From positions 1-64,000 of the forward strand of contig JAQTME010000006.1 in the NCBI GenBank assembly GCA_028714535.1: 64,000 nucleotides of DNA, written 5' to 3'. Position numbers and translations under genes: made by a program. Each line of letters starts with the position of its first letter. Position 1 is the first letter of the stretch. The DNA is from Candidatus Iainarchaeum sp. Lineage in GTDB: Archaea; Micrarchaeota; Micrarchaeia; Anstonellales; Bilamarchaeaceae. The notes below the pieces were generated by a model, which had not been told where the DNA came from, did no database searches, and was given only the letters and a program-made list of their open reading frames with translations. Positions 4,497 to 60,962 of this stretch are shown one piece after another.

Positions 4497-5046
4497 GATC
4501 CTTGCCCCATTCGACAATCAGCGCGCGATATTCCTTGTAGACCGGCACTGAGCGCGGAAGCGAGGATTCGAAAAACCGCTTGTAGTCGTCGTATTCCCTG
4601 CTTTCGAACAGCTTATGGTGCGCGCAGAAGCGCCGCGTATAAGCGTCAATCACGAAATGGGGCAGGCCGAACGCGTATAAAAGTATCGAGTCGGCGGTCT
4701 CTTTTCCCACGCCCTTCACCGCGAGCAGCTCGTCCCGCGCAGGCGGCGAGCCGCGCCGGCTTATCTCCACGTATTTCCTTGTCAGCAGCTTCAGCCTTCC
4801 GGCCTTCTGCCTGTAGAACCCGCTCGGGCGGATGAGCGACTCGAGCCTGGCGCGCCGCATGCGGAGCACCTTGCCCGGCGACAACGCTCCGGCCTTTTTC
4901 AGGTTGGCTATCGCCCTCTCAACGTTGCGCCAGTTCGTATTCTGGGTGAGCAGGGCGCCGACAACGACCTCGTACTGCGTCTCGGCCGGCCACCAGCGCT
5001 GCGTCCCGTATTCCCGCAGCAAGCTCCGGTAAAGGCGCATCAGCAT
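4474..5046 (-). CDS. Endonuclease III/MagIII-like DNA glycosylase (HhH-GPD)
   Basis: A 190-residue base-excision repair glycosylase. It has the N-terminal LLTQNTNWRNVE helix, a helix-hairpin-helix (LLAVKGVGKETADS, about 108-121) and the catalytic Asp134 in FVIDAYTRR. No 4Fe-4S cysteine cluster follows, so it is closer to the MagIII-type or 'endonuclease III-related' group than to classical Nth. Substrate could be alkylated or oxidised bases and is not determined. It starts 4 nt after the stop of the upstream methyltransferase-like gene and is probably co-transcribed with it. Confidence 0.85.
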   Translation of the reverse strand: MLMRLYRSLLREYGTQRWWPAETQYEVVVGALLTQNTNWRNVERAIANLKKAGALSPGKVLRMRRARLESLIRPSGFYRQKAGRLKLLTRKYVEISRRGSPPARDELLAVKGVGKETADSILLYAFGLPHFVIDAYTRRFCAHHKLFESREYDDYKRFFESSLPRSVPVYKEYRALIVEWGKDLRNRGAP

Positions 5047-5050
5047 GGCA

Positions 5051-6109
5051 TCAACCGTTTTTCTTCAGGCATGCGAATTCGTGCAGCGCGGCAATAAATG
5101 TTTCGGTCGTGCCTATTCCGGGTATAGTATCCGTCCCGGCCTCGGCCAGCGGGAGCCGATAGGTTTCGAAAAACACCGGGCTGAATCCTGAGGCCATGCC
5201 CACCAGCAAATCAAGCCCCACGTGCCGCTCGCCGTCAAATCCGAGCCTGGGCGCGGAAATCAGCACCAGCCCCCCATCCGGCCCTTCGTGGCAGTAAACG
5301 ACACGCTCCCTGTTATCAGGCGTCACCGCCACCGTCACGTATGCCACGGATGCGGATACCGCCAGGCTGCGGCCAGGCTCCAGGATTCGGTGTGCCTCGG
5401 CGAGATGAACGAGCGCGGCGACCAGCTGTATCGGCGGAACCTGCCCCCCGTCCGAAAGGTTGCAATCGTCGCCGAACTTCATCTTCAGTTTGGTGTCCAG
5501 CCATGCGATGGGCAGGGGATAGATGTTGGGCAGCACGTCGTCCGACAGCACGAAACTGAAGCTGTCGCTTTCCAAAGGCAGCGGCCGCAAGTCGCTCTCC
5601 AGGGGAGGAGCGGCAAGGATTCCGCGGACCACGGCAGCCGCATCTGTTCCCGAAGACGAGCGGCCTATGGCTTCCTCGGCCCTGGCGACTACGCGCCCCA
5701 CGTAAGCAGACGCATCGCATACTAACACCGACACTTTGCCGCGCAGATGCTCGGGGAGGCGCTGCCGCGCAATCTCCGGCCCTTCAGCATCAACGTCAAG
5801 AAGGACTACTTCGTCAAAACGGCCGGCCAGGCATTCAAGCTGGAAATCGCCGCAGTTGCCGGGCCCGGCTACCAGCGCGCGGCCGTTGCCGCTGAAGCCG
5901 GCCGCTAGACCGACCTGCTTTTGGTGCCAGGCGAGAAATGGGTTGAAGAAAGCCGCGGGCACGCCGCAACGGGAATCGGACCGCCGGATGCGGTTGACGA
6001 GCGTGTAGACTTCGGCGAGGCTCTTAGCCTTGCGCATCTCAGTTTGGAAATCCACGCCCCAGGAATTCATGCGGGACAGAATCCGCGGGTCCATGCTGAC
6101 CTTCTGCAT
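5051..6109 (-). CDS. Rossmann-fold, SAM-methyltransferase-like protein
   Basis: A 352-residue protein of unknown function. The central segment ALVAGPGNCGDFQLECL followed by FDEVVLLDVDAE resembles motifs I and II of class I SAM-dependent methyltransferases. A later LPLESDSFSFVLSDDVLPN resembles motif IV, and EAHRILEPGRSLAVS resembles the region after it. No substrate motif is recognisable. The ATG at 6109 lies 27 nt from a clear TATA box, so the mRNA is probably leaderless. It heads a two-gene unit with the DNA glycosylase. Confidence 0.6.
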   Translation of the reverse strand: MQKVSMDPRILSRMNSWGVDFQTEMRKAKSLAEVYTLVNRIRRSDSRCGVPAAFFNPFLAWHQKQVGLAAGFSGNGRALVAGPGNCGDFQLECLAGRFDEVVLLDVDAEGPEIARQRLPEHLRGKVSVLVCDASAYVGRVVARAEEAIGRSSSGTDAAAVVRGILAAPPLESDLRPLPLESDSFSFVLSDDVLPNIYPLPIAWLDTKLKMKFGDDCNLSDGGQVPPIQLVAALVHLAEAHRILEPGRSLAVSASVAYVTVAVTPDNRERVVYCHEGPDGGLVLISAPRLGFDGERHVGLDLLVGMASGFSPVFFETYRLPLAEAGTDTIPGIGTTETFIAALHEFACLKKNG

Positions 6110-15500: not shown

Positions 15501-18500
15501 CCATGGTGCCGGAGAGGGTAGTGCAGCCAGGGGAAACCGCGCGGCCTGTAGAGGCTGCAAACCTGGCGGCGTATGAGACGTACATGAAAACAGGGATGCT
15601 TCCGGAAAAGCCGACCCAGGCCCATCTCGATTATATCCAGGAAAGGCTGCGCGGCGCGACGCACGAGGAGGCCATGGCGATGGCAGGCGGCACGTACAGG
15701 GGACCGACAGCTGCTGAGATAAAGCGGCGGATGGAAGCGGCCAGGGACAACGAGGCGTGCAGCAGCACAGTGGAATCGTTCGATTTCAGGGCGGCGGACA
15801 GGGCGGCGGTGGACGCGGCCATAATGGAACGCGGCGCAGCGCGCAGGTGGATGGCAGGCGGCGAGGAACTGGCAGGCGAGGCCGCCTCCACCGGAAGGAT
15901 ACTGCGGGGCATAGAAAGCCACATAACAGCGCTCGTGCGCGGGGGCGAGGACCTGGACGTCATAGTGGTCTCCGGGGACAAGGCCAAGCTCAACCAGATA
16001 AACCAGATGATGGGGCGCGGATACGGCGACCACGCGCTCGACGCGTACCGCGAGCTGCTCAGGCGCTCGGTGTACGACGCGAGCGGCAAGGACGGGATAG
16101 CGTTCCTGGTAAGGCCGTCCCAGAGCGGCGATGAGGCGATTGGCGTCATAATAGTCAGGGGAGGGGCAGGCGGCAGCGTCCATGAACGGCTGGCCGGCGC
16201 GCTGGCCAGGAATACGAGGACTGTATTCGACGAATATATGCAGCCTGAGCATCCGCAGACCCTCGCGCCGGTGAGGGGCCTGGTCCGCGACCCGCTTGAC
16301 CTGGTGGCTGAAGCCATAGACGTCAGCGAGCCTGTGGCCGTGAGGCGGGGCGCCGGAGGCAGGGTCGCCGCGGCCAACAGGGACGGGACCGACGCCATGG
16401 TGACTCACCAGATAGAGACGCCGGCAGGCAGGGAGACCGTGACGGAGTTCATGCCCAAGCTGGTACGCAGCGCTGACGAGCAGGGCTCGGCAAGCCACGC
16501 GCCGCACATGAGGAGGATGCTCAACAGCGGCGTGGATACCGAGATACGCAGGGCCCAGAACATAGCCGAGATTACAGTGGGCCAGCGGGTCAGCGGCATG
16601 GCTTTCGAGATGAGGCTGGAGGTAACCGACCCGACGGTACTCGCCGAAGCGCGCGCCCTCCTCCCAAAGACCAGGAAGGCGCTTGCAGAGGTGCTCACCA
16701 ACAGGTTCGACATCAGGGCATTCAACACGTTCCTGGGCCACTACGGCGCCAACAAGGTCGTGAACGCCGTGGAGGCTGCGGCCGGGGAATACGCGGCCGC
16801 CGGCGGCCTCACCATACGGCGCCTGGGCACGATGAAATACGTAATGGAAGGCGGCACGCCCGAGCAGATAAGCGCGCTCAACGCGCACGTGAGCGGCAGG
16901 CTCAGGCAGGCTGGCATGAAGTTCAGGGTGGGCGACGGCGTCCGCCCGGGCAGCGCAGTGGAGAATGCCAGCGCGGCTGACGCGCTCGCAACAATATCCA
17001 ACGGCCACCTGAAGCTGGAGTGGGGGGCCGCGAACTACGAGAACGCCAACGCGATAATAAGCTCCATGGCCATAGGCAACGACGAGACGCTCATGCGGCT
17101 GCTGGGCAGCGACTACGGGCACATGCGCGGCCTGGTGGATCTCGTGCGGAAAAACCCGGCGATAAGGAACGTGGAGGACCTGATGATAGCCCTGCACGAT
17201 ACGAGGCTGGGCGGAACCGGCGGCCCTGCCATGGAGACGGCGTTCAAGGCGTTCGTGACCGGCAGGGGCACTGAGTTCAGGGGGATGCTGGAGACGCTCG
17301 CGCCGCCTGCCGAAGCGATGGTGCTTAGGAGGGCGGTCGGCGCGGAAGAAGTGGTGTTGCAGCGCGCCCCGGAGGCTCCGCGGTCAGAACGGGCGCCGCA
17401 AAGGGCGCCCCAGCAGGCAATTGAAACGCTGGAGAGGAGCATAGGCGCTAAGCCGCGCGGGGCAGAGCTCGAAGCCGCCCTGAAGATGCTGGCGACCGAG
17501 GAGGAAAGGGCAGTGGCCAGGGTGCTTGACGCAATCATGGTAGGAGAGGTGAAGGGGAAGCTGCCTCCTGAATACCGGCGCGTGATTGACGACATAGGCA
17601 AAGAGGGCCTGGGCAAGGCAGGGGAGGCCGCTGCCGCAGCTGAAAGGGCGCTCATAGTAGTCTCGTCAGTTCCGGATGTGATGAACGCAAGAAGCGTGAT
17701 TGCGATGGAGGAGGCCATGGCCACGCAGGGCATAAAGGGCGAACTGGCCGAGGATGCCATAGCGCTGTTCAAGACAATCAAGAGCATGCACCTGAAGGAC
17801 AGCGAGATGAGGTGGAGCGGGGAAGACCACTTCGCGGTAATGGACCGCATCGAGCGGGGCGTTCCTGAGCCCGAGGCGGTCATACAGGTCGCCGCGGAGA
17901 AGAAGGCTGCCTACGAGCAGGCTGCAGATGCTCTCCAGGCTGCGCTGCAAAACGAGCGGCAATTCAGGCAGACAGATGCTGAGCTCGCAATGAACCTGCT
18001 GCGCTGGCGCTACGGCAGGAAGATGGACTTCACGGACCAGCAGGTCCTCACAAAGAAGGTGCTTGATGCGCTCGATCGGCATTTTGACGAAGGCAAGGGG
18101 GATGTCGAGGCAGTCATCGCCACCGCAAAACAGATGGCGAAGGAGAAGGCGGTGGCTGGGGCGCCACAACTCGGTGAACCCAGCCGGACCGCACTCACTG
18201 AAATGTTAGGGAAGGGCGCAATAGGCGAAAGGTATCTTGGCTACTTCACGGAGAACGGGCTCACAGACGACTTCTTAGCCATGGCGGCGCGGAAGATAGG
18301 CGGCGGGAAGATTGAAAGCCCGGCCGTCAGGAGCCTTCTGTTCGAGATGTTCAACATGGCACCTGACGAGCTCAGGGCATATTTCAGGCTCGCAGCAAAA
18401 GTGGAAAGGGTGCCGCTTCTTGACACGGAAAGCATTGCGAAAAGTCCGCAGGCCAGGGCGTTCAGGGAAGGCAGGGGCGAGGTGCCAACTGCGCCGTTGC

Positions 18501-50802: not shown

Positions 50803-50896
50803 GGTCCCACCGTAACAATATTGCAGGGGATGGTGTATAAATCTAACGCCGCGGGCATGAACGGCGCTCCGTTCCTGACCGTCGTTTTATAGCAAT

Positions 50897-50918
50897 AAAA
50901 CGCCGAGGGCAGGATTTG
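50897..50918. repeat. attL (displaced copy of tRNA-Ser 3' end)
   Basis: AAAAC then GCCGAGGGCAGGATTTG, identical to the right copy. The flanks are not tRNA-like, so this is the displaced host 3' end. It lies between the ACT gene and the integrase. In the 50803-51051 gap the remaining sequence is GC-rich and open on the plus strand up to TAG at 50998-51000. Confidence 0.9.
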
Positions 50919-51051
50919 CCGTGACGCGCGGCTCCTGGTCTGGGAGGCCCGGGCACGTGCCCCCCAGCGGCCATACACGGCCGTCCCGTCGCCTTCATAG
51001 TGTCCCTTTATGTCTTTTTCAGTGCATATACTCTTTTTGAGGTGGTGAGGG

Positions 51052-51852
51052 ATGGACCGTGAATTCAAGGAGTTCAGCCGCAGCTTCGCCCGGCGCGTGG
51101 CCCGGGCGCCGCACTGGCAGATCAAGGAGCTCAGCAAGATCTGCCGCGACGCTGCCAAGGCCCGGTTCCCCTGGCACACCAGGAAGTGCGAGCTCATAGA
51201 AAAGGCATTCACGGACCAGGAGCTCGCGCAGCTCCTGGAGGTGGTGGACGATCCGCAGGACCGGCTCTGCTACATGGCCCTGGCCCTCCTGGGCCTGCGC
51301 GTAGGCGAGCTGGCGCAGCTGCGCGGCCGTGACCTCCAGGGAGATGAGCTCCGCATCACGGCCTCCAAAGGATCCTTCAGCGGCCTCCTGCGGCTGCCTC
51401 CTGCACTCCTGGAGATGATCCCGCCCAGGAGGCCGGGCGAGCTCCTGTTCTCCAGGACGGCAAAGCAGCTCAGGGACCACTTCGGCAGGTACCGGCATGA
51501 GGCCGGCCTGGACCAGATCTACTGCTACACAGAGCCCGGAGGACGTGCCCGGCACAGGAATCCGCGTTACCGGCTGTCCCTTCATTCGCTGAGGCATTAT
51601 GCGATCCAGCGCGTGTACAACGCAACCCGGGACCCGGACCTGGCGCGGCGTTTCGCCAGGCACCGGAAGCTGCAGACCACGCTGGGATATTTCAAGAGCT
51701 CGCGCAAGGAGGACGTGGAGGACGTGCTCGCGCAACTCTCCGGCCACCTGAAAGCATGTGCCTCTCCTGGGCGGCTCCAGGGCACGCGGCAGCTTTATAT
51801 AGGGTCTGTGGTTGCAGAAAGTGGGGCGAAAACGCGGCCGCTGCCATGCTGA
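51052..51852 (+). CDS. int: Tyrosine recombinase (integrase)
   Basis: A 266-residue integrase with the full catalytic set: Arg83 (LGLRVGELAQL), Lys106, His178-xx-Arg181 (LHSLRHYAIQ), His204 and Tyr213 (TLGYFKSS). The ATG follows GAGGTGGTGAGGG. It is intact and not split by the attachment site, unlike the SSV-type partitioned integrases. It should catalyse integration at tRNA-Ser and, with helpers, excision. Confidence 0.93.
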   Translation: MDREFKEFSRSFARRVARAPHWQIKELSKICRDAAKARFPWHTRKCELIEKAFTDQELAQLLEVVDDPQDRLCYMALALLGLRVGELAQLRGRDLQGDELRITASKGSFSGLLRLPPALLEMIPPRRPGELLFSRTAKQLRDHFGRYRHEAGLDQIYCYTEPGGRARHRNPRYRLSLHSLRHYAIQRVYNATRDPDLARRFARHRKLQTTLGYFKSSRKEDVEDVLAQLSGHLKACASPGRLQGTRQLYIGSVVAESGAKTRPLPC

Positions 51853-51994
51853 AAAAATCCTTAATTAGGTTAGTTTAACCTACTCCAGCAATCGTCCGGC
51901 GTAAAACTCAGCTGGCCGGCCACGAGCTCGAGCAGCTGACCAGGATCTCCTGGAGATCGAGCTCGAGGACCTACGCTGTGGTGGTAATGAGTGG
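51853..51994. other. Non-coding gap with dyads at the end of the structural operon
   Basis: Between int (plus) and the holin-like gene (minus). It contains AGGTTA-GTT-TAACCT, a 7-bp dyad GATCTCC-T-GGAGATC, and two GAGCTCGAG copies flanking it. These may end convergent transcription or bind a protein. No convincing gene. Confidence 0.45.
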
Positions 51995-52240
51995 TTAGGC
52001 TGTCCCAATCTTCGGGCCTGTTTGGACTGTGGAGGCCACCTTCCGGGTCCGTCCCTGCTTTGAATTCAGCACGTCCAGGTGGATGGACAAAGAACGCGTG
52101 GCGTCCGTGTTTGCAGTGGTGGAAGCGGTCAGATTGTCCAGGGCGGATGTGATTTTGGTGAGGAGCACCTGCCGGTCGTAGATCAGGTATGCCACGAACA
52201 GGCCCAGGGCCCCGTACTGCACCAGCGCGTCTTCGATCAT
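51995..52240 (-). CDS. Small membrane protein, holin-like
   Basis: An 81-residue protein with one N-terminal TM helix (ALVQYGALGLFVAYLIYDRQ) and a helical, charged tail. The layout resembles BhlA/holin-type phage proteins, but single-TM proteins are too generic for certainty. Its ATG directly follows the previous stop (TGAATG). Last gene of the structural operon, a common place for lysis or release functions. Confidence 0.5.
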   Translation of the reverse strand: MIEDALVQYGALGLFVAYLIYDRQVLLTKITSALDNLTASTTANTDATRSLSIHLDVLNSKQGRTRKVASTVQTGPKIGTA

Positions 52241-52399
52241 TCAGATGCGCCCCGCCACATACGCAGCCCAGAGCACGTCCAGCTTCTTCTTGTCGGTGGT
52301 GGCGTCTTGCCCGTCCTGCTTCCGCTTGGCCTTCTCGGCTATGCGGTCCTCGTTTTTGTAGGAGGGCGTCGGGTCTATAGTCTCAGCTGCTTTCGGCAT
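52241..52399 (-). CDS. Small charged protein (52 aa)
   Basis: Encodes MPKAAETIDPTPSYKNEDRI followed by a Lys-rich helix and LDVLWAAYVAGRI. Unknown. The ATG is 1 nt after the spike gene stop, and its own stop abuts the holin-like gene, which supports expression. Confidence 0.6.
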   Translation of the reverse strand: MPKAAETIDPTPSYKNEDRIAEKAKRKQDGQDATTDKKKLDVLWAAYVAGRI

Positions 52400-52400
52400 G

Positions 52401-53384
52401 TCAATCCCCCACCAAGCCGTAGCCCTTGCAGCTCGGCGTGTCTGCGTCTGAACCTGTGCCCTGGCTCAGCGTGATCTTCATCTTGGCTCCCGTGAGCGTT
52501 TGTGCGCCGCCCAGGTCTACCCAGCTATCCACGGCCTGGCCGGTCTTCTGCCAGGTCCCATCTCCGGTGTAATCTATGGCCCAGGTGCAGGTGTTGCCAG
52601 TGGCCAGGGCGAGAAGATAGGGGTGGAGCCTGAGCCGTGAATAACTGCCGTCCATGGCCGTGAGGGCGATGGTCTGAATGTGCCGGGAGGTTGCAGCTGC
52701 CGTTGCTTCAGTCGTTACGCTCACGATGCCGTCTGCGTACCCACTGCCGGTGCTGCTATGGTCCGTGAAATTGAACACCGCGCCACCAGTTTTGGGATAG
52801 CTAACGCCGGTGTTGTAGGCGCGGCTGTAGTTGCTGCCGGAGTTGTCGAGAAGGATATAGTAAACGGTCGATGCGGCCAGGGCCACATGTGGGGAGAATG
52901 TTGCGACGTCTCCTGAAAAGGTGGCCGTCCCAAGGACCGTCGTCTTGTTGCTCGCCGTAATCCGGCACCGCGTGGCTGTGCAGGTGCTCTTTTTTGTTAC
53001 GGACACAATTGGATTGCATGCACTGGTTGTTGTTATCTGCTCACCAGCTGCTCCAGCATCCACCGTGTTTGAGCCCAGGGTTTCCCCAAGCGTTTCCGGA
53101 GCTGTAGCCGCAAAGTGCGCGGTGTGAGAAGTGCCGCTGAAAATCGTGTCTGTGTTCGCCGTGTCCACCGTATTCCTTTTGCCGTCGGCGTCTGAAAAGA
53201 ATTCTGGTTGTGCCGCACTATAATTTATGCCGGCCGTGCTTTCTACGAAGACGTTGCCGACCATGAGCTCGGCTATCTGATTGTTCAGGGATGCGTTGAG
53301 TTTCGGCGGTGTCACCGCACCAGCTGCCAGCTTGCTGGTCGTGACTGAGCCGTCAGTTACCGCGTTGCTGGAGCCAAACCCCAT
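52401..53384 (-). CDS. Spike or receptor-binding virion protein (probable)
   Basis: A 327-residue protein, beta-rich and Ser/Thr/Gly-rich. Its N-terminus DGSVTTSKLAAGAVTPPKLN is the trimerising repeat found at the base of many phage fibres. A beta domain with two internal cysteine pairs follows (SACNPIVSVTKKSTCTATRC), and the C-terminus ends in a discoidin/jelly-roll-like strand pattern (WVDLGGAQTLTGAKMKITLS). Likely the host-recognition spike at capsid vertices. It adjoins the preceding gene with no gap. Confidence 0.65.
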   Translation of the reverse strand: MGFGSSNAVTDGSVTTSKLAAGAVTPPKLNASLNNQIAELMVGNVFVESTAGINYSAAQPEFFSDADGKRNTVDTANTDTIFSGTSHTAHFAATAPETLGETLGSNTVDAGAAGEQITTTSACNPIVSVTKKSTCTATRCRITASNKTTVLGTATFSGDVATFSPHVALAASTVYYILLDNSGSNYSRAYNTGVSYPKTGGAVFNFTDHSSTGSGYADGIVSVTTEATAAATSRHIQTIALTAMDGSYSRLRLHPYLLALATGNTCTWAIDYTGDGTWQKTGQAVDSWVDLGGAQTLTGAKMKITLSQGTGSDADTPSCKGYGLVGD

Positions 53385-53729
53385 TTAATCCGCCTCGTAT
53401 GCGTTCACCATGACCTGGAAGTGCCCGGCTGTTGTGGTGTTGGCATTCTTAACCAGGAATGCGACGGTTGCGCCCTTGGGGACGGGAACGTCCAGGCGTG
53501 GGAGCTCTATGCTGTTGATCGTGGAAAGCGAGCTGATGTCATCCGCGACAACGAAGCCGTTGATGCTGATCGTGAACGTGCCGTCAGCCTGGAGCGTGCT
53601 GTCGTAGGCGATCACCACTTCCTCTAGCAGTATGTTCCCGTCCTTGTCGTTCGTCCAGGTGTACGGCGTTTCGTCTGATGCGGCCACGCTCTGCGGACCT
53701 GAGACTTTTCCAACGAAGCGGATCTTCAT
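53385..53729 (-). CDS. Small beta-rich structural protein
   Basis: A 114-residue protein with alternating hydrophobic strands (EEVVIAYDSTLQADGTFTIS, SIELPRLDVPVPKGATVAFL). Size and position before the spike gene suggest a single jelly-roll minor capsid or penton protein. Not recognised by sequence. Confidence 0.55.
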   Translation of the reverse strand: MKIRFVGKVSGPQSVAASDETPYTWTNDKDGNILLEEVVIAYDSTLQADGTFTISINGFVVADDISSLSTINSIELPRLDVPVPKGATVAFLVKNANTTTAGHFQVMVNAYEAD

Positions 53730-53924
53730 TCAGACAACCTCCTGGATTATCTTCTCGAATATGCCCTCGGCGACCTTCTGGATCTTCTTCGCCGTTTTCT
53801 GCTGCGGACCCGGAGTGCGCGCCGCGATTATCACTGGCGCCAGGACTGGGCTTGAATAGCTGATGATCTTCGCTACGGTCTTCGAATGTTTTTTCACGGC
53901 TCGGCGTGCGAGATCCCCGATCAT
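53730..53924 (-). CDS. Small basic protein (64 aa)
   Basis: Encodes MIGDLARRAVKKHSKTVAKI, a hydrophobic centre (SSPVLAPVIIAARTP) and an amphipathic end (IFEKIIQEVV). Unknown; possibly membrane- or DNA-associated in the virion. It overlaps its upstream neighbour by 4 bp. Confidence 0.6.
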   Translation of the reverse strand: MIGDLARRAVKKHSKTVAKIISYSSPVLAPVIIAARTPGPQQKTAKKIQKVAEGIFEKIIQEVV

Positions 53925-54331
53925 TCTTTCCTCACCGCCACGAACAGGAGCAACAGCACTATGCCGCAGCCTATCAGCGCCATTTTCAGCATGTCGTCTT
54001 CCTGTTCCTTGATCGTACGCCCTACTCCAGCCACTGCGGTCTGGACTGCTGCACCCGCTCCGGTCACGACGCCTACAGCTGCACCCGTGACCTTGGCCTC
54101 CACGCTGTTGATGGTCTGCTGTGCACCAACCACGGCTCCGGTTACGGCACCTGTGGCTGCGGCCACGGTGCTCTGCAGGGGTTTCCAGATCAGGGCCCCC
54201 AGGTCCTGCTCAATCTTAGAGACGCCCGCCTGGATGGCGTTCATGAGTGACTGCGCAATCTGATCAAGCGACCAGAAGGGGAAGGGCCGGATTGTATAGA
54301 CATTCGGCAGCCTAATGTCCAGGGGGTTCAT
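53921..54331 (-). CDS. Virion membrane protein with C-terminal TM
   Basis: A 136-residue protein. The central Ala/Gly/Val-rich amphipathic stretch (about 55-105) is followed by one TM helix (MALIGCGIVLLLLFVAV) near the C-terminus. Alternating small residues are common in viral internal-membrane proteins. Function unknown. Confidence 0.6.
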   Translation of the reverse strand: MNPLDIRLPNVYTIRPFPFWSLDQIAQSLMNAIQAGVSKIEQDLGALIWKPLQSTVAAATGAVTGAVVGAQQTINSVEAKVTGAAVGVVTGAGAAVQTAVAGVGRTIKEQEDDMLKMALIGCGIVLLLLFVAVRKE

Positions 54332-54335
54332 GAGA

Positions 54336-54806
54336 TCACGACCCTATGAAGCCAGGGCCATACCGTGAATTGAGGTCTGCGATATTCGCCTGCCTCGCGG
54401 CTTCGCGCTCAGAGGCCGAGGCGTGAGCCCCGCCTATGTCCACCAAGTGAGAGCCACCGCCCACATCGGTTACCCGGGTAACGAGAGGATTTCCGCCGAC
54501 ATTTGACTGTATCGGCGTTCCAGGTCCCTGGGTCCTTGCAATCTGCGCGGCTGCGGTCGCTGCCGCTCCTGTCCCATGTGCGGCCACGTAGCCGGCCGTG
54601 CCGGCACCGTAGCTGTCAGGCGCAGGCGTCGGGTTGGTGAGGCCGGCGCCGGTATTCGCGTCACCCTGGGAGGCTGCACTGGCCGTGCTGCCGGTTATGC
54701 CCGAGCCAGCGGCGCTGGCGTCGCTGCCCGGCTTCTTGGAAAAGTAAATCGCGGCCAGGGCTACAACCCCGGCCACAACAACCAAAATCGCTGCCGCGCC
54801 CTTCAT
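54336..54806 (-). CDS. Virion membrane protein with N-terminal TM
   Basis: A 156-residue protein with one N-terminal TM (AILVVVAGVVALAAIYFS) and a Gly/Ala/Ser/Thr-rich linker. The C-terminal HASASEREAARQANIADLNS resembles the ASEEEHEAARQANLKRMGKA end of the protein at 57853. It overlaps the capsid gene by 4 bp. Probably a membrane-associated virion protein. Confidence 0.6.
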   Translation of the reverse strand: MKGAAAILVVVAGVVALAAIYFSKKPGSDASAAGSGITGSTASAASQGDANTGAGLTNPTPAPDSYGAGTAGYVAAHGTGAAATAAAQIARTQGPGTPIQSNVGGNPLVTRVTDVGGGSHLVDIGGAHASASEREAARQANIADLNSRYGPGFIGS

Positions 54807-55666
54807 GCCGGGGGCGCCTCGGTGTAGAACACGTAGAGGCTCAGGGTGTCCGCTGTACCGTTGATGAGCTTCAGCACGGTCCTGTCGCTTGCAACGAACG
54901 GAGTCACGGGCAGGAGGAGATAGCCCGAGATGTGCGCGGCGCCCCTGGCCGTGTCCAGGTATTGCTGGAGGTCGGCAGTCAGGAGGTCGTGCTCCTCACC
55001 ACCGGCCGCCGAAAAGACAGCTTCGGTCAGGTATGCCTCGGTCAGGCCCAGCGCGATCGCGGTGATCCTCTTTCCACGCGGAAGGTAGGACGCGATGCTG
55101 TTGGTGCCGATTGCAAGGGAGACGGTCGTCTTGGTGACACCTTCGGTCACATCAGTGCTACCGTCGCGGTACATGCCGGTTACTGTGAAGGTGACTGATG
55201 CCCCGGTGCATCCGGAGGTCGCCAGCACGGAGTACGGCGCATAGACCACCTGGATCTTTGCCGGGAGGTCCTTGCTGTCCACGCTCCACTGGAGCACGAA
55301 CTGGTTTGTCTCGGCGGTGTTCTGCACTGCGCTGGCCCAGCTCTCGCTCTTTCCGTACCTGGAGCTCAGGTACTGGAGCAGGTTGAGGTCCGTGCCGTTG
55401 ATGGACTGGGAAATGTTCTTCCCCGAGCGCGTGAGGATCCGGATCTCAGCTATCGCCCGGTTGATCGTCTGCGCGCTGGACAGCGTACCGGCTGCGGTCA
55501 CGCTCAGCTGCACGCTGAAGCCGACCAGGTCGCCCAGGTTTGGGATCTCTATGGCCGTGCCGTTCTGCTGAGCCGCGCTCAGCGCCTTCGTCTCAGCCAT
55601 TATTGACTTTGAGCGAAGCGTCATGTCCCCGTTCTTTGCCTTGTACTGTCCGTAAAGTCCTGGCAT
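54803..55666 (-). CDS. Probable major capsid protein (double jelly-roll candidate)
   Basis: A 287-residue, beta-rich protein without cysteine clusters or TM helices. The ATG at 55666 follows GGTGA. Two successive domains are visible. One (about 25-140) has IEIPNLGDLVGFSVQLSVTA and ends near QFVLQWSVDSKD. The other (about 145-285) has VTFTVTGMYRDGST, KRITAIALGLTEAYLTEA and SGYLLLPVTPFVASDRTVL. The size is close to the smallest double jelly-roll proteins such as PM2 P2. Two-domain structure, operon position and the linked A32-type ATPase support the call; the fold itself is inferred. Confidence 0.65.
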   Translation of the reverse strand: MPGLYGQYKAKNGDMTLRSKSIMAETKALSAAQQNGTAIEIPNLGDLVGFSVQLSVTAAGTLSSAQTINRAIAEIRILTRSGKNISQSINGTDLNLLQYLSSRYGKSESWASAVQNTAETNQFVLQWSVDSKDLPAKIQVVYAPYSVLATSGCTGASVTFTVTGMYRDGSTDVTEGVTKTTVSLAIGTNSIASYLPRGKRITAIALGLTEAYLTEAVFSAAGGEEHDLLTADLQQYLDTARGAAHISGYLLLPVTPFVASDRTVLKLINGTADTLSLYVFYTEAPPA

Positions 55667-55671
55667 GTTTT

Positions 55672-56034
55672 TCACCCGGCCCTCATCGAAATCCCTTTCG
55701 TCAGGTCCAGAATTATCCCCGCACTCGCGGCCCATTTTGCCGCCACCAGGATCGCAGCTGCGAATGCCGCGCCCAGGGACAGTTTGAGGCCGATGTCGTT
55801 CTTGAACACAGTCATGAACACGGCCGCGAGAGCAAGTGAAATCACCAGCTGGAGCTCCTGCGTCCAATTGGCCAGCTGCGGCACAACCTTTGTGATCATC
55901 GGCATCACGTAAACAGTCAGTACGCCGACCACGGCAGCCCCGCCGAACATCCACAAAACGTCAGCTAAAAGAGAGGTGCCCAATCCCGGGATTTTCTTGG
56001 CCGCTTCGACGGCCCCAGAAACAACATCAGTCAT
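55672..56034 (-). CDS. Three-TM membrane protein, first gene of structural operon
   Basis: A 120-residue protein with hydrophobic segments at about 22-45 (ADVLWMFGGAAVVGVLTVYV), 62-78 and 86-105. Unknown role, likely an internal-membrane virion protein. Its promoter lies just upstream. Confidence 0.65.
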   Translation of the reverse strand: MTDVVSGAVEAAKKIPGLGTSLLADVLWMFGGAAVVGVLTVYVMPMITKVVPQLANWTQELQLVISLALAAVFMTVFKNDIGLKLSLGAAFAAAILVAAKWAASAGIILDLTKGISMRAG

Positions 56035-56058
56035 ACTGAAGGGTGCGGATTAGGATGG

Positions 56059-56070
56059 ATTTATAACCCC
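56059..56070 (-). promoter_or_regulatory. Promoter of the structural operon
   Basis: TTATAAATC on the minus strand, centred about 28 nt before the ATG at 56034. It probably drives the genes from 56034 down to 51995. Confidence 0.6.
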
Positions 56071-56074
56071 ACCA

Positions 56075-56113
56075 ACGTCGGAGAAATCAGGAATTCTCGG
56101 GTTGTTCCGACGT
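56075..56113. promoter_or_regulatory. Candidate operator upstream of the structural promoter
   Basis: Perfect 8-bp dyad ACGTCGGA / TCCGACGT (56075-56082, 56106-56113). Another TCCGACGT is at 56175-56182, and ACGTCGG recurs in the RHH/AbrB divergent promoter at 60482-60488. Confidence 0.45.
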
Positions 56114-56130
56114 GGAAGCCGGGTTTTGCT

Positions 56131-56754
56131 TTATATACCCCTTATCGGCTCTGGACCATGTATCTGGCACCTGTTCCGACGTACGGGGTCGCTCCTGGGC
56201 CAGTACAGGTACTGGTACGGGCGCAGCCTTTGCATGAGCTCGGACGGCTTCATTCCGTCGGTGGCCGGCATGTAGGCGTCCACCTGGTCCAGGGCCGAAC
56301 CGCAGACTGAGAAGACGATCAGGTGCTGGCACTGCCGGATCAGGGGCGCCATGCCGACGAAGTCCTGCGCCAGGAGGAGGGCCCCGACGTGCCTATGCCG
56401 GCCGCGCCGTATCAGCGTGAGGAGATTGTCCGGTATGGAATTCACGCCGACGTAGTCCATGACCTCCGGGACCGTGAAAACCCTCCGGCCACGTGCAAAT
56501 ACGACGTTGCAGACGTGGGCGAATTGCGCCTCCTTGTCCGCACGGCCCTCCTGGAAGGGATCGTAGGCTATGGCTTTCTGCCTCCAGTCCACGGCCGCAA
56601 GCCGGCTGACTGCCCCGGGGAACTCGCCTTCAGTGTCATAGACGAAGTACGGGAAGCCCCAGCCCTGGAGAAGGTACTTGGCCAAGGCTGTCTTCCCGCA
56701 CTCGCTGGGGCCGATTATGAGCGTTTTATCCTGAAGGCGGAACAGGGGCAACAC
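56131..56754 (-). CDS. HerA/FtsK-superfamily genome-packaging ATPase (A32-like)
   Basis: A 207-residue P-loop ATPase, the size of viral A32-type packaging enzymes. Walker A is GPSECGKTA (about 15-23). FVYDTEGEFPG and the AIAYDP strand follow. The Walker-B-like RRVFTVPEVMDYVG keeps Glu97, but the preceding Asp is Pro. The HerA-type sensor is GALLLAQDFVGMAPLIRQCQHL (Gln130). It would pump viral DNA into the capsid. GTG start at 56754; overlaps the preceding gene by 29 bp. Confidence 0.82.
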   Translation of the reverse strand: MLPLFRLQDKTLIIGPSECGKTALAKYLLQGWGFPYFVYDTEGEFPGAVSRLAAVDWRQKAIAYDPFQEGRADKEAQFAHVCNVVFARGRRVFTVPEVMDYVGVNSIPDNLLTLIRRGRHRHVGALLLAQDFVGMAPLIRQCQHLIVFSVCGSALDQVDAYMPATDGMKPSELMQRLRPYQYLYWPRSDPVRRNRCQIHGPEPIRGI

Positions 56755-57460
56755 CTATCGCAGCTGCGGCCGCCGGCGACTTCTTGCTCATGTCGGCCTG
56801 GACCTTGTCCCAGGCCTTCTTTGCAGCCGGGAACCTCGACGCTACGAACATGCCCTCGATCACCAGGATGTCGCCCCAGAAGATGAGGTCGGCGTACGTC
56901 ATGTCCTTCACGTACTTCAGCGCGATCCTCCGGCCCAGCCGCCCGAACTGCTTACGCTCAACGTCGCTCAGTGGTTTCTCCAGGGCCGTGGCCGGGAGGT
57001 CATGGAGGTACAGATAGAGCTCCGCGACCATATCCCTGAGCTCCTGGAGGTCCTGAGCAGAGATCACATCAGACGCCGCGTCCCCGATCTCTGAGATTGT
57101 TTCTGGGAATTCCTGGACTTGAGGCGGTGATGCCTGGCCCTCCTGGGCCGGCTGTGCCGCCGGTGCAGCTGGAGGCGGCGGCATCTGTTCAACCTTCAGC
57201 ATGTCATCTATTGGTACATCCTCAGGCTTCGTCGGTAGTTCTGACGTGGAAGCCGGTGCCGGGCTTTGTGCATTCCCGGGTTTTGATTTTTCCTGTGCTT
57301 TCGCTGTGCCAGCTGAGGAATTCCCGGTTTTTGCCAGGAACTCTTTATACACATTTTCCGAGTGCTTACGACCGGCATGGGCCAGTCTTGCGGCCTCCTT
57401 TGGATTTTTCCCCTGGCTGTACAGCTCAAGTAGCTGCTGTTTTTTGGTTGTCGATTCCAT
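56726..57460 (-). CDS. HTH protein with Pro/Ala linker
   Basis: A 244-residue protein. The N-terminus (residues 1-40: LLELYSQGKNPKEAARLAHA) looks like a resolvase-type helix-turn-helix. A long Pro/Gln/Ala-rich linker leads to a helical C-terminal domain (VERKQFGRLGRRIALKYVKD). Unknown; DNA binding linked to packaging is possible. Confidence 0.6.
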   Translation of the reverse strand: MESTTKKQQLLELYSQGKNPKEAARLAHAGRKHSENVYKEFLAKTGNSSAGTAKAQEKSKPGNAQSPAPASTSELPTKPEDVPIDDMLKVEQMPPPPAAPAAQPAQEGQASPPQVQEFPETISEIGDAASDVISAQDLQELRDMVAELYLYLHDLPATALEKPLSDVERKQFGRLGRRIALKYVKDMTYADLIFWGDILVIEGMFVASRFPAAKKAWDKVQADMSKKSPAAAAAIGVAPVPPSG

Positions 57461-57710
57461 CAGTCTTCACCTTCACAAATTCCTTCACCAGATCGCCCAG
57501 CTTCCCGCCCACGTACACTCTGCCGAGAGCCGTGCCGTCCGCGTCTGCTACGTTGATCATGAGCTCATACTTCCCGGCGCCGGTGTCCAGGACCTTCACG
57601 CCGCCGCTGTCCACGTGCTTTTGCAGCAGCTTCCGGATCTCCCCCTTCATGATCGCCTCGATGTCGATACCGAAACGCCTGGCGACCTTCACTGCCTTGT
57701 CAGTATCCAT
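57426..57710 (-). CDS. Small alpha/beta protein
   Basis: A 94-residue protein: an N-terminal helix pair (AVKVARRFGIDIEAIMKGEI) and a beta segment (GKYELMINVADADGTALGRV). Unknown. The C-terminus overlaps the next gene by 35 bp. Confidence 0.6.
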   Translation of the reverse strand: MDTDKAVKVARRFGIDIEAIMKGEIRKLLQKHVDSGGVKVLDTGAGKYELMINVADADGTALGRVYVGGKLGDLVKEFVKVKTDGIDNQKTAAT

Positions 57711-57856
57711 CGTTCTTCCTCCATGTGCTTTTTCAGCGATGATCTCCAGTGCTGCACTGTGGCCAGGGTCTTCTTTGTCTGGAGCTCCGGGTGCCGATGG
57801 AGCTCGGCCAACTGGCCCATCGCACCCAGGATGATCGCGTTGTTGCGATCACTCAT
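57689..57856 (-). CDS. Small protein (55 aa)
   Basis: MSDRNNAIILGAMGQLAELH, then a basic helix ending HMEEERWILTRQ. The start overlaps the preceding stop (ATGA at 57853-57856), and its own end overlaps the next start, which supports translation. Unknown function. Confidence 0.6.
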   Translation of the reverse strand: MSDRNNAIILGAMGQLAELHRHPELQTKKTLATVQHWRSSLKKHMEEERWILTRQ

Positions 57857-58182
57857 GCTTTCCCCATCCGCTTCAGGTTGGCCTGCCTGGCCGCTTCGTG
57901 CTCCTCCTCACTGGCCGGAGGGCGCGTGCTCAGGATCTTGTCCCCGGTCGCCACTGTGTAGCGGACCGTGAGGGGATCGCCGTCCACGTCAATCTCTATC
58001 GGCGTGTTGGGACCCTCCCTCAGAAGGATCGCGGCAACCTGGCCGGCCTTCGTGACCCTCGTCTGGCCGTTGAAACTGACGCTATGCGGCTGCTTCAACA
58101 GCTCGTCCAGATCTGCTTTGCTAAGTTCCATTTTCACCAGCTCCTCCAGGAGGGGCCTGCGCTCCTCCGTGAACATGATCAT
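57853..58182 (-). CDS. Small hypothetical protein
   Basis: A 109-residue protein with an N-terminal helix (LLEELVKMELSKADLDELLK), a small beta region (IEIDVDGDPLTVRYTVATGD), and the tail ASEEEHEAARQANLKRMGKA, which resembles that of the 54336 protein. Unknown. Confidence 0.6.
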   Translation of the reverse strand: MIMFTEERRPLLEELVKMELSKADLDELLKQPHSVSFNGQTRVTKAGQVAAILLREGPNTPIEIDVDGDPLTVRYTVATGDKILSTRPPASEEEHEAARQANLKRMGKA

Positions 58183-58331
58183 TCCCCATAGAGCGCCCTG
58201 GCCTCCTCAAGGCCTGAACGCGCCTGGCGCACGGCCAGCTGGCCAAGGGTCAGGCTGATCGTAACGCCGTTCTTGTTCGTGAAAATCAAAAAGAGAAAGG
58301 AATCTCCCGGGCCCTGGAGGTCGAGCATCAT
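58179..58331 (-). CDS. Small hypothetical protein (50 aa)
   Basis: The ATG at 58331 overlaps the previous stop (ATGA). The protein has a strand-rich start (SFLFLIFTNKNGVTISLTLG) and a helical end. A longer upstream start would overlap the neighbour fully. Unknown. Confidence 0.55.
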   Translation of the reverse strand: MMLDLQGPGDSFLFLIFTNKNGVTISLTLGQLAVRQARSGLEEARALYGE

Positions 58332-58540
58332 GGTTTCGGCCTCCGTGCCAGGATACCGGCCAGACGGCTCCGTAGTTGGCGGTACTCCCACTCACTCAGA
58401 CGGCTCAGCCTGGGCGTTGCAGACCACCAGCTCGCAGGTGCCGGAATTTCTCCAGGCACTTCTTCATAGAAAAACAACGCCGCAAATGGCCTGCCGAACC
58501 AGATCCGCTCAGTCGCAAAAATCTTTTCCAAAATGTTCAT
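58328..58540 (-). CDS. Small hypothetical protein (70 aa)
   Basis: MNILEKIFATERIWFGRPFA, then a Trp/Arg-rich C-terminus (WEYRQLRSRLAGILARR). Basic. Starts 11 nt after its upstream neighbour. Unknown. Confidence 0.55.
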   Translation of the reverse strand: MNILEKIFATERIWFGRPFAALFFYEEVPGEIPAPASWWSATPRLSRLSEWEYRQLRSRLAGILARRPKP

Positions 58541-58550
58541 AGTGCATCCC

Positions 58551-58865
58551 TCAGTCTATGCGCGTGATCGCGTTTCCTTCGAGGCCGGTGATCAACTTCC
58601 GGATCTTCGCCACGGCCTCCAGGACGGCCGTGTGGTCCTTGTCGTCCAGCTTCTTTTTGTTTGCCAGCAGCAGGTACCTCTGCATATTATCGAGGTTGCC
58701 CTGGACCTTCAGTTTCGTCTCCTCCAGGCTGAGTGCGTGGCCGCGTTTGACAGCCACGGCCTGCTCCAGGATCAGGGAGATGTCAGAGCCGCAGTAGTCT
58801 CTGGTCGCTTTGCTGACCCACACATTCCCCTTCACTTTTTCTTGTCCGTTGGCTGGTCGCCCCAT
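58551..58865 (-). CDS. Helical hypothetical protein
   Basis: A 104-residue, mostly helical, charged protein (SLILEQAVAVKRGHALSLEE, DHTAVLEAVAKIRKLITGLE). A GGTGA precedes the ATG. It is the first gene left of the cruciform/iteron region and may encode an initiator or regulator, but no motif supports this. Confidence 0.55.
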   Translation of the reverse strand: MGRPANGQEKVKGNVWVSKATRDYCGSDISLILEQAVAVKRGHALSLEETKLKVQGNLDNMQRYLLLANKKKLDDKDHTAVLEAVAKIRKLITGLEGNAITRID

Positions 58866-58878
58866 CGTTTCACCGGGT

Positions 58879-59165
58879 TTTTTCCTGAATTTCCTGACTG
58901 TTTTCCTGAAATTCAGGAAAATACTTCCGCTCTGAAAAACATGAGTTTATAGCCGAAATTCGGCGGTAAACTCATGCAGACGCCGCCGCCTACGACGTAG
59001 TAACTACTACGCCGTTACAACGACCGTGACACTGCGCTTGGACGAAAGGTCCAAGAGGGTGGTCTGGAGGGGTTTTACTCCGAATTTCGGCGGTAAACCC
59101 CATGCGTGTTATCGGAGGTTTTTTCCTGATTTTCCTGAATTCCTGAATTTCCTGACTGAATTTTC
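58879..59165. other. Iteron/cruciform region, candidate replication origin or control region
   Basis: TTCCTGA-type iterons lie at both ends (58882-58921 and 59121-59159). Two related palindromes lie between: arms 58940-58949/58967-58976 around GCCGAA-A-TTCGGC, and arms 59069-59077/59094-59101 around CCGAA-T-TTCGG. Both share the inner TTCGGCGGTAAA. A perfect TTTTCCTGAA-A-TTCAGGAAAA (58901-58921), CGTAGT-AACT-ACTACG and CTTGGAC-N5-GTCCAAG lie within. The interval 58866-59074 has no gene; the right iterons overlap the C-terminal codons of the next gene. Confidence 0.6.
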
Positions 59166-59284
59166 GCTTGCTTCAGGACCTTGAATTTTTGATTGCCGCA
59201 TTTTTTGCAGCGGACATCGTACTGTGAGACTGGCGCCTGGCACTTTGCACAGATCCACGTTTTCTCAGGTGCTGGTCCATTCAT
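59075..59284 (-). CDS. Zinc-ribbon protein
   Basis: A 69-residue protein with a clear CxxC..CxxC ribbon (WICAKCQAPVSQYDVRCKKCG) near the N-terminus. A low-complexity C-terminus is encoded by the iteron block. Similar rubredoxin-like ribbons occur in archaeal viral regulators. Unknown function. Confidence 0.65.
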   Translation of the reverse strand: MNGPAPEKTWICAKCQAPVSQYDVRCKKCGNQKFKVLKQAKIQSGNSGIQENQEKTSDNTHGVYRRNSE

Positions 59285-59311
59285 AGCATCGCCTTCTGTG
59301 GTGATCTCAGC

Positions 59312-59561
59312 TCACGCTTTCGCTTTGCACTCCGGGCACGTGCCCCATTTCACGCCTTCCTTCTCCTGTTCGCAGGTCCTGCACTTCTTGAGCTCTGTCG
59401 ATTTCTCTTTCCGGGGGGGGGGCGGCTGGCCCTGCAGCTGCAGCAGGGATGGCCCTGCGTTTCACATAAGCGAAGTACGCCTGCACGTCCTCGGGCAGGC
59501 CTTCGACCTCGGCCACATCTCCAGCATCGTCCAATCTCACTCTGACCTCGCCTTTTTCCAT
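59312..59561 (-). pseudogene. Zinc-ribbon protein frame-split at a 10-C run
   Basis: The start MEKGEVRVRLDD (ATG 59561, after AGGAGG) reads to the Pro tract encoded by ten C residues (G run at 59413-59422). Beyond it the same frame gives no recognisable domain and ends at 59307. The neighbouring frame gives KCRTCEQEKEGVKWGTCPEC, a perfect zinc ribbon, ending at 59312. A run of nine C would join them. This is either a sequencing/assembly error, a real mutation or phase variation; the intended product would be about 82 residues. Confidence 0.6.
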
Positions 59562-59565
59562 GATC

Positions 59566-59808
59566 TCAATCCTCCTCATCGTCGCCGCTTTCGTCCCAGA
59601 TGCATGTGCAGCTGCTCAACAGTTTTCCGCACCAGGGGCATCTCGGCTCATCAATTTGGCGGGCGCCACCAGCCGGCAAAGTAGTGAGAGGCGGGAGTGT
59701 CAGCTGGTGGCACCGTTCGCCAGGAGGATGAGGAGAGCCGGCAGACTGCAACGGTGCTCGACATCCAGCTGCCGGGTCCCCTATCCTCCCATGCGCGTGA
59801 AATTTCAT
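59566..59808 (-). CDS. Small protein with CPWC motif
   Basis: An 80-residue protein with RCPWCGKLLSSCTC, a possible zinc site, and an acidic end (DESGDDEED). The ATG overlaps the previous stop (ATGA). Unknown. Confidence 0.6.
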   Translation of the reverse strand: MKFHAHGRIGDPAAGCRAPLQSAGSPHPPGERCHQLTLPPLTTLPAGGARQIDEPRCPWCGKLLSSCTCIWDESGDDEED

Positions 59809-59978
59809 GGAGCTGCCTCGCTCGGCAAAACATTCTCACAGGCAGCCAGGAACAGGGCTATGTCGTTGAAATGCCCAATGTACTCTGCCGCCTTGGATCT
59901 AGGAAACGCCTTCATAACTTCTGTCAGCGCTTCACTGCACGACTTCGCTTCCTCCTTCGATGCTTTTCCCTGTGTCAT
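59805..59978 (-). CDS. Small helical protein (57 aa)
   Basis: MTQGKASKEEAKSCSEALTE onward, helical throughout. ATG at 59978 overlaps the previous stop (ATGA); longer frames upstream lie over other genes. Unknown. Confidence 0.6.
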   Translation of the reverse strand: MTQGKASKEEAKSCSEALTEVMKAFPRSKAAEYIGHFNDIALFLAACENVLPSEAAP

Positions 59979-60103
59979 AAAACCATCTCCGTGATCGCGG
60001 CGGCCAGCTGGCCGCGTTTCTCCGGCGTTGAATAATTGCTCGGGCTGATGTGCGGGACGACGTTGTTGAGGGCGGCCACACAGGCACGCAGAGGGACGTT
60101 CAC
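59975..60103 (-). CDS. Small protein (42 aa)
   Basis: GTG start at 60103 follows GGAGG and overlaps the previous stop (GTGA). MNVPLRACVAALNNVVPHIS onward. Unknown. Confidence 0.55.
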   Translation of the reverse strand: MNVPLRACVAALNNVVPHISPSNYSTPEKRGQLAAAITEMVL

Positions 60104-60288
60104 TTTTTGGCCTCCGTGTGCTCTTTGTGGAATTTGTAACCCATTTCGGCGATGAACGCATCTCTCCATTCTTCGGCCGCCTGCTCATACTTCACAGCGA
60201 GACGCGCGTAGTACATCCAGTAGCAGAGCGGCCGTCTGCATCGTCTTCCGTTCACGATGGAGCATGGAATAGACGGGATGTCTTTCAT
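60100..60288 (-). CDS. Small Cys/Tyr-rich protein (62 aa)
   Basis: IPCSIVNGRRCRRPLCYWMY at the N-terminus has three cysteines; the C-terminus is basic. ATG overlaps the RHH gene stop (ATGA). Unknown. Confidence 0.6.
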   Translation of the reverse strand: MKDIPSIPCSIVNGRRCRRPLCYWMYYARLAVKYEQAAEEWRDAFIAEMGYKFHKEHTEAKK

Positions 60289-60431
60289 GAGCTCGCCTTC
60301 TTTTTGAGTGTATCCAGTTCGTCCAGGAGGACGTTCAGCGCCGCATCGTCTGGGAGTGCAGGATGTGGTTTGTGCTTGCGAAAACGAGCCTTAGTCTGCG
60401 CGGAAACCCGGAGGGATGTTATTTCATTCAT
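60285..60431 (-). CDS. Ribbon-helix-helix regulator
   Basis: A 48-residue protein with the archaeal viral/plasmid RHH pattern: strand TSLRVSAQTKARFRKHK, then DDAALNVLLDELDTLKKK. First gene of the small-protein operon. Its ATG lies 27 nt from a TATA box (TATATAAA, about 60453-60463), so leaderless. Probably represses the divergent promoter region. Confidence 0.7.
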   Translation of the reverse strand: MNEITSLRVSAQTKARFRKHKPHPALPDDAALNVLLDELDTLKKKASS

Positions 60432-60536
60432 GCGCGTATATTTTCATTAATGTTTATATACCTTTCATTTTACGCCGTTGAACGTCGGTAGATACATTTA
60501 AATATATTTTTATATATGTTTAGCACAGGTGATAAC
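60432..60536. promoter_or_regulatory. Divergent promoter region between RHH and AbrB genes
   Basis: Two AT-rich TATA elements: GTATATAAA (minus, about 60458) for RHH, and ATTTTTATATATG (plus, about 60507) for AbrB. Between them is ACGTCGG (60482-60488), the same core as at the structural promoter. Layout resembles a lysogeny switch. Confidence 0.55.
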
Positions 60537-60899
60537 ATGCTTGATAGCGGAACCTTGTATCTCGACGACAAAAGGAGGATCGCAACCTTGCCTAAAGCCA
60601 TTCGTGCAAAAATGAAGCAGGACGGTTGGACGGACGGCAACATCATCTGGGATTACAACGAACAGACCAAGTGCCTCGTTATGAAACAACGAAATACAGT
60701 GATTCAAATCGACCGTGAAGACATCACAGAAACCAGAGATAACCTCAGAGAAATGAACCGGCTAATGAAAAAAATGCGCACTGCAACTACACTATCCGAG
60801 CAGGACTCAATCAAAGTGGAGATGCAGCAGCTATCTACAAAGGCCATGCACCACATGGAGCGATTAGCTGCAAAAGAAAACGCCGAGGGCAGGATTTGA
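60537..60899 (+). CDS. AbrB-like regulator ending in the attachment site
   Basis: A 120-residue protein. The N-terminal swapped-hairpin AbrB-like domain is visible (LYLDDKRRIATLPKAIRAKM, then NIIWDYNEQTKCLVMKQ), followed by a helical C-terminus. AGGTGAT precedes the ATG. The last codons (ENAEGRI) are att core. The TGA stop is made by the last two core bases plus one base of tRNA-Ser, so the reading frame is closed by the host. In the excised circle it would run on for 27 codons (see findings). Confidence 0.75.
   Translation: MLDSGTLYLDDKRRIATLPKAIRAKMKQDGWTDGNIIWDYNEQTKCLVMKQRNTVIQIDREDITETRDNLREMNRLMKKMRTATTLSEQDSIKVEMQQLSTKAMHHMERLAAKENAEGRI
60877..60898. repeat. attR (functional 3' end of tRNA-Ser)
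   Basis: Identical to 50897-50918. It provides the 3' acceptor and T-arm bases that keep tRNA-Ser intact after integration. Confidence 0.92.
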
Positions 60900-60962
60900 A
60901 CCTGCAATCCCAAAGGGACCGGTTTTCAAGACCGGCGCACTACCGGGTTATGCGACCTCGGC
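60881..60962 (-). tRNA. tRNA-Ser (UGA)
   Basis: Complete type II cloverleaf on the minus strand: acceptor GCCGAGG / CCTCGGC, anticodon stem CCGGT/ACCGG around CTTGAAA with anticodon TGA, variable arm TCCC-TTT-GGGA, and T arm GCAGG-TTCAAAT-CCTGC. Its 3' end is the viral attachment site. Confidence 0.95.

Follow-up and report, generated by a model that had tools for sequence, protein, structure and literature searches.

A Micrarchaeota provirus with a double-jelly-roll capsid and an attachment site between two genes of the same direction

The window analyzed in this work (64,000 nt of contig JAQTME010000006.1 of Candidatus Iainarchaeum sp., Micrarchaeota) contains an integrated element whose rightmost gene is completed by a base of a host tRNA gene. 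This raises the question of what integration does to the genes on both sides of the attachment site, i.e., whether the altered C-terminus of a small viral protein acts as a "built-in state sensor", as proposed in an earlier note on this DNA, or whether it is the integrase gene that is mainly affected.

The provirus and its insertion site

The element, of about 10 kb, lies inside a tRNA-Ser(TGA) gene, between direct repeats (50919–60876). Sequence comparison within the window revealed exact copies of the 22-bp repeat AAAACGCCGAGGGCAGGATTTG at positions 50897–50918 (attL, the host-left junction, whose left flank is syntenic with an empty site) and 60877–60898 (attR). The latter copy constitutes the 3' end of tRNA-Ser, from the T-loop to the terminator T-run; the tRNA gene itself, which is the attB target, was located with ARAGORN at 60881–60962 on the minus strand. 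In the genome G147, of the same genus, the order ScpB, tRNA-Ser(TGA), ACT gene, purA is uninterrupted, without an insert, and CGTTTTTT follows directly after tRNA-Ser. The empty site and the sequence after its tRNA indicate that the core is the host T-loop-to-terminator region and that the insert is real. A junction search of IMG/VR gave no attP of an excised circle, and no circle was seen. In another genome (G125, L056 about 2020–2150), the T-loop of tRNA-Ser is seemingly broken by about 45 nt, where the window provirus recombines, which is a possible intron or insertion.

The element is a provirus of a double-jelly-roll (DJR) capsid virus. Both defining proteins, i.e., a DJR major capsid protein (MCP) and a packaging ATPase, are encoded within it. 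The MCP gene, which marks the element as a virus, occupies positions 54803–55666 (minus strand), and the AlphaFold model of its 287-aa product (pLDDT 71.5) matches the DJR MCP of STIV (2bbd; Foldseek E 2.3e-12) and PRD1 (E 2.7e-12). The packaging-type ATPase is encoded at 56131–56754 (minus strand; phrog_2666, head and packaging, E 1.7e-14; weak Pox_A32), and the tyrosine recombinase (integrase) gene int, intact when integrated, at 51052–51852 on the plus strand (PF00589, E 5.8e-9; phrog_216, E 4.4e-17). A decayed provirus, in which the att sites and the ORF arrangement would be relics without current excision, would be consistent with the fact that neither a circle nor a close relative was found, but the open frames of the integrase, capsid protein, and ATPase genes and the identity of the 22-bp repeats make it extremely improbable.

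MCP relatives, showing 29–31% identity, were found in the genomes G031, G035, and G121, while the MCP matches in G036 and G251 were too weak for use. Searching viral and genome collections with the MCP gave no members beyond the three from whole genomes, and no paper on jelly-roll-capsid proviruses of Micrarchaeota turned up in the literature collection searched. The DJR-capsid proviruses of Micrarchaeota recognized here (window 50919–60876 and loci L038, L039, and L040) are 10–12 kb long in the three cases with resolved ends.

The split stop codon and the extended frame

The rightmost ORF of the element (60537–60899, plus strand; alternative start 60516), preceded by a Shine-Dalgarno-like AGGTGAT, encodes a protein of 120 aa in the integrated state. 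It runs into the repeat and ends with ...KENAEGRI-TGA, where TG belongs to the repeat and the last base, A60899, to the T-loop of the tRNA. The coordinates of the repeat, the tRNA, and the ORF thus bear out the proposal of the earlier note that the ORF ends with ENAEGRI within the att core and that the host tRNA completes its TGA; the extent of the core had to be corrected, as the true repeat spans 60877–60898 and not 60870–60899.

Joining of position 60898 to 50919 in silico, as in the attP of an excised circle, showed that the frame continues with CRDARLLVWEARARAPQRPYTAVPSPS up to a TAG at 50998–51000, which lengthens the product from 120 to 147 aa. The anticipated 27 open codons (50919–51000, plus strand) were found in this reconstruction, and so was their high GC content (0.76). 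The segment is at the same time the 5' leader of int, as the TAG lies 51 nt before this co-directional gene (ATG 51052); int is in the same frame as the extended gene, with two stops between them, perhaps by coincidence. Provided that recombination falls within the 22-bp identity, the att sites make it very likely that the C-terminus differs between the circle and the provirus, as had been claimed, and we regard the changed C-terminus of the small protein as a real consequence of integration.

The 27-codon open extension is not meaningful by itself, being expected by chance about half the time. In Markov resampling of the 133-nt int leader, 26–27 codons stayed open in 49–50% of trials, and in resampling from the GC-rich 82 nt alone the frame was open in 66% of trials. 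Within the extension no coding signature was detected (the local codon-usage score is negative, and a better-scoring frame lies on the reverse strand), and its C-terminal end, ...YTAVPSPS, does not resemble an ssrA tag. With a GC content of 0.46 the small gene is AT-rich and the tail is GC-rich, which would be the expectation for a tail that is no more than the leader of int. This leader contains the palindromes GGGCACGTGCCC (12 bp; 50951–50962) and ACGGCCGT (50977–50984), possible protein binding sites, so a DNA-site function could constrain it instead.

The position of the small gene, divergent from the leftward genes, suggests that its product may be a regulator; the leftward (structural) genes begin with an ORF at 60285–60431 (minus strand) with a TATA-like TTTAAATG 71 nt upstream. 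The earlier designation of the product as "AbrB-like" is not statistically supported. Residues 3–27 are in register with the signature of the AbrB/SpoVT swapped-hairpin regulators, with a weak profile match (hhalign probability 5.5%, obtained with two bacterial reference sequences that may be approximate), but support from Pfam, NCBIfam, PDB sequences, or fold is lacking: the protein had no significant match in the three collections, and the gene was not among the matches at E 10 in a PF04014 search of its own genome. The structural model is of low confidence (pLDDT 62, below 55 in the N-terminal part) and has a helical hairpin at the C-terminus; a fold search with this model gave no PDB match at E 0.001 and none with E <0.4, and nearly all matches were helical. 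The last predicted helix comprises residues 86–116, and the 27-residue tail begins after it.

The search for homologues of the small protein in IMG/VR, phages, and the family genomes gave none except a protein of G170, 35% identical to its N-terminal half over 75 aa (E 7.7e-6). This 76-aa chromosomal protein, encoded away from att sites, is devoid of the C-terminal half, and the conserved extended C-terminus, for which the earlier note had advised to look, was therefore seen in no homologue. In the region L041 8687–10135 of G170, the gene of this protein adjoins two short genes of the same strand, with products of 162 and 232 aa, and the group may be a small mobile or defence cassette. As for the state sensor, the difference between 120 and 147 aa stands, since it follows from the att sites, but the chance-level openness, the missing coding signature, and the lack of a tailed homologue leave the sensing itself doubtful.

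Related elements and the integrase promoter

The relatives chosen by capsid protein for comparison of the terminal genes were L038 and L040; L039 was left out, as its contig stops short of the att site. The integrase gene of L038 (G031; 3996–5114, minus strand) runs into the repeat CCCTCCCTCGGCATG (4002–4016 and 15683–15697) and ends with AEGGI-TGA, the stop lying in the T-loop of the tRNA; the circle would extend its product by 27 codons, from 372 to 399 aa. The second relative, L040 (G035), the empty site of which is present in G031, is placed at the tRNA-Leu 5' end and has a short 7-bp GGAGGGG core (5555–5561 and 15983–15989), deduced by comparison with G031. Its rightmost gene, which agrees with the window gene in location and direction, takes a TAG from the tRNA; in the circle its product would grow from 106 to 140 aa, with the 34-codon continuation ending before int. 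The L040 site (15983–16120) represents an apparent integration at the 5' end of a tRNA-Leu gene that contains an intron, with a repeat of merely 7 bp.

A terminal gene with a tRNA-supplied stop and an open continuation was thus present in three of three resolved members (the window element, L038, and L040), and the joint chance of all three frames being open this far is about 0.055. Relatives without an open extension, named in the earlier note as evidence against its claim, were not encountered among those with resolved att sites; the continuations in L038 and L040 concern different genes and have unrelated sequences. The survey of 40 further loci, 38 of which were picked around integrases, included 20 other tRNA-flanked elements, each with an integrase inside, and only two of these (L079 and L098) had an ORF of at least 90 aa leaving the core with its stop outside the core. 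Fisher's test for 3/3 versus 2/20, calculated by hand, gave 0.0056, with the 90-aa limit for ORFs set in hindsight and L040 reached by another route. In L081, an apparent fusion of an ORF with the integrase across attP was rejected, as the ORF is not gene-like.

These data bear on two explanations of the altered C-terminus. According to the first, it is a neutral by-product: a gene of a compact genome ends at the att site, the antisense T-loop ATTTGAACC offers a TGA, and either C-terminus works. The same T-loop TGA stops the L038 integrase and apparently also the L098 ORF (ending with GVAGI); the T-loop supplies this stop generally, so a part of the arrangement is built into tRNA targeting. 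Openness at chance level and a tail lying beyond the last predicted helix fit this explanation as well, but the occurrence of the arrangement in all three resolved members of the group, against two of the 20 other elements, speaks against it (with the above reservations on cut-off and ascertainment), and we consider it rather unlikely.

According to the second explanation, the 147-aa circle form and the 120-aa provirus form differ in activity or stability and integration sets lysogeny, as in mycobacteriophage BPs. The gene order is that of BPs, the change in length is similar (33 residues in BPs vs 27), and the terminal genes of L038 and L040 likewise have tRNA-supplied stops and open continuations. 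Yet a single extension of such length arises by chance half the time, its sequence is not common to the relatives, it has no coding bias and differs sharply in GC content from the gene, the affected gene of L038 is the integrase and not a regulator, the tail is not an ssrA-like tag, and the small protein is a putative repressor at most. We find a true switch of this kind unlikely.

The reading to which we are somewhat inclined is that in this DJR provirus attP sits where two genes of the same direction meet, that a single promoter drives both of them in the circle, and that integration uncouples int. It is based on the geometry of the repeats and the tRNA, the empty site in the same genus, the gene order with the reconstructed junction, and a contrast in TATA scores. 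The latter come from a simple matrix and not from mapped starts; for calibration, tRNA and host genes were scored (tRNA-Gln 8.3, tRNA-Val 6.0, ACT 6.0, purA 4.5); tRNA-Ser scored just 1.6, so the matrix misses some promoters. Before the small gene (60497–60516, plus strand), TATA-like boxes TTTAAATA (60497) and TTTATATA (60509) have scores of 8.0 and 8.3, in the top 0.014% of window positions, whereas the best score in the 133-nt int leader is 2.6, which resembles operon-internal genes (about −2 to 3).

In the circle the order would be promoter, regulator-position gene, attP, and integrase, and one promoter would transcribe both genes, giving the integrase and the 147-aa small protein. Integration would cut this transcription unit, so that int loses the promoter of the small gene and the small protein takes its 120-aa form. 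Judging from the sequence, integration probably separates the integrase from its promoter, and the main effect is probably that the integrase is switched off once integrated. Boxes of moderate score in the host flank left of attL (TTTATAGC, 3.5 at 50886, and TGTATAAA, 4.8 at 50834) could drive int in the provirus, which counts against the uncoupling.

In 17 of 21 surveyed elements with int beside the att site, int has either no leader or a leader devoid of boxes scoring at least 4, and in all 17 such a box occurs across attP within 400 nt, a weak criterion, as chance matches are common in AT-rich DNA. Most of the elements L064–L101 (about 20) have the integrase start at or over the att core, which implies that the promoter or the N-terminal context must change on integration.

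Comparison with known systems

Placing attP between int and its promoter would be a simple way to silence the integrase after integration, and the survey suggests that, even without a switch, Micrarchaeota elements commonly set attP between the integrase and a likely promoter. State-dependent int promoters are known from ICEKp1, ICEclc, and ICEEc1 (PMC13023037). In these elements, as presumably in the window element, the circle promoter of int is located at the far element end and joined to int by circularization. They are, however, bacterial ICEs, and integrated ICEKp1 uses the host tRNA promoter, whereas the tRNA of the window lies at the far end from int.

In archaeal suicidal integrases (SSV/pTN3/pT26-2-type), attP is located in the integrase gene and integration splits it (review PMC8371274). 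The likeness consists in attP lying within a viral gene whose product is changed by integration; in the window element int stays whole and the C-terminus of another gene product changes. Assignment to the SSV type was rejected, as int (51052–51852) is entirely inside the element.

The closest known system is the integration-dependent immunity of mycobacteriophage BPs, described for clusters G, I, N, and P (PMC4557955). In BPs, attP is located in the repressor gene with the integrase gene next to it; the viral form of the repressor is 33 residues longer and is degraded through an ssrA-like tag, whereas the form made by the provirus is active (PMC4557955). The window element shares with BPs an attP in the 3' end of a small gene, altering its C-terminus, the co-directional integrase gene directly downstream in the viral form, a divergent gene opposite, and a longer viral form. 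The differences are that the BPs repressor is proven and its viral form carries an ssrA-like tag, while in the window system there is no such tag, the regulator is putative, the virus is an archaeal DJR virus, and the stop is supplied by a tRNA. No archaeal case of integration-dependent immunity turned up in the literature collection searched.

Should the 120-aa and 147-aa forms differ in their action, an archaeal virus would have the integration event as its lysogeny switch, the way mycobacteriophages do. The far-reaching version, in which Micrarchaeota DJR viruses have attP at the 3' end of one viral gene and use it as a state switch that, together with the loss of the int promoter, locks lysogeny, i.e., an independent archaeal counterpart of BPs, appears to us quite unlikely. 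The safer reading is that attP, situated between the regulator-position gene and int, alters how the product of the former ends and how the latter is transcribed, and by analogy the window system may be a possible archaeal variant of the integration-dependent immunity of BPs.
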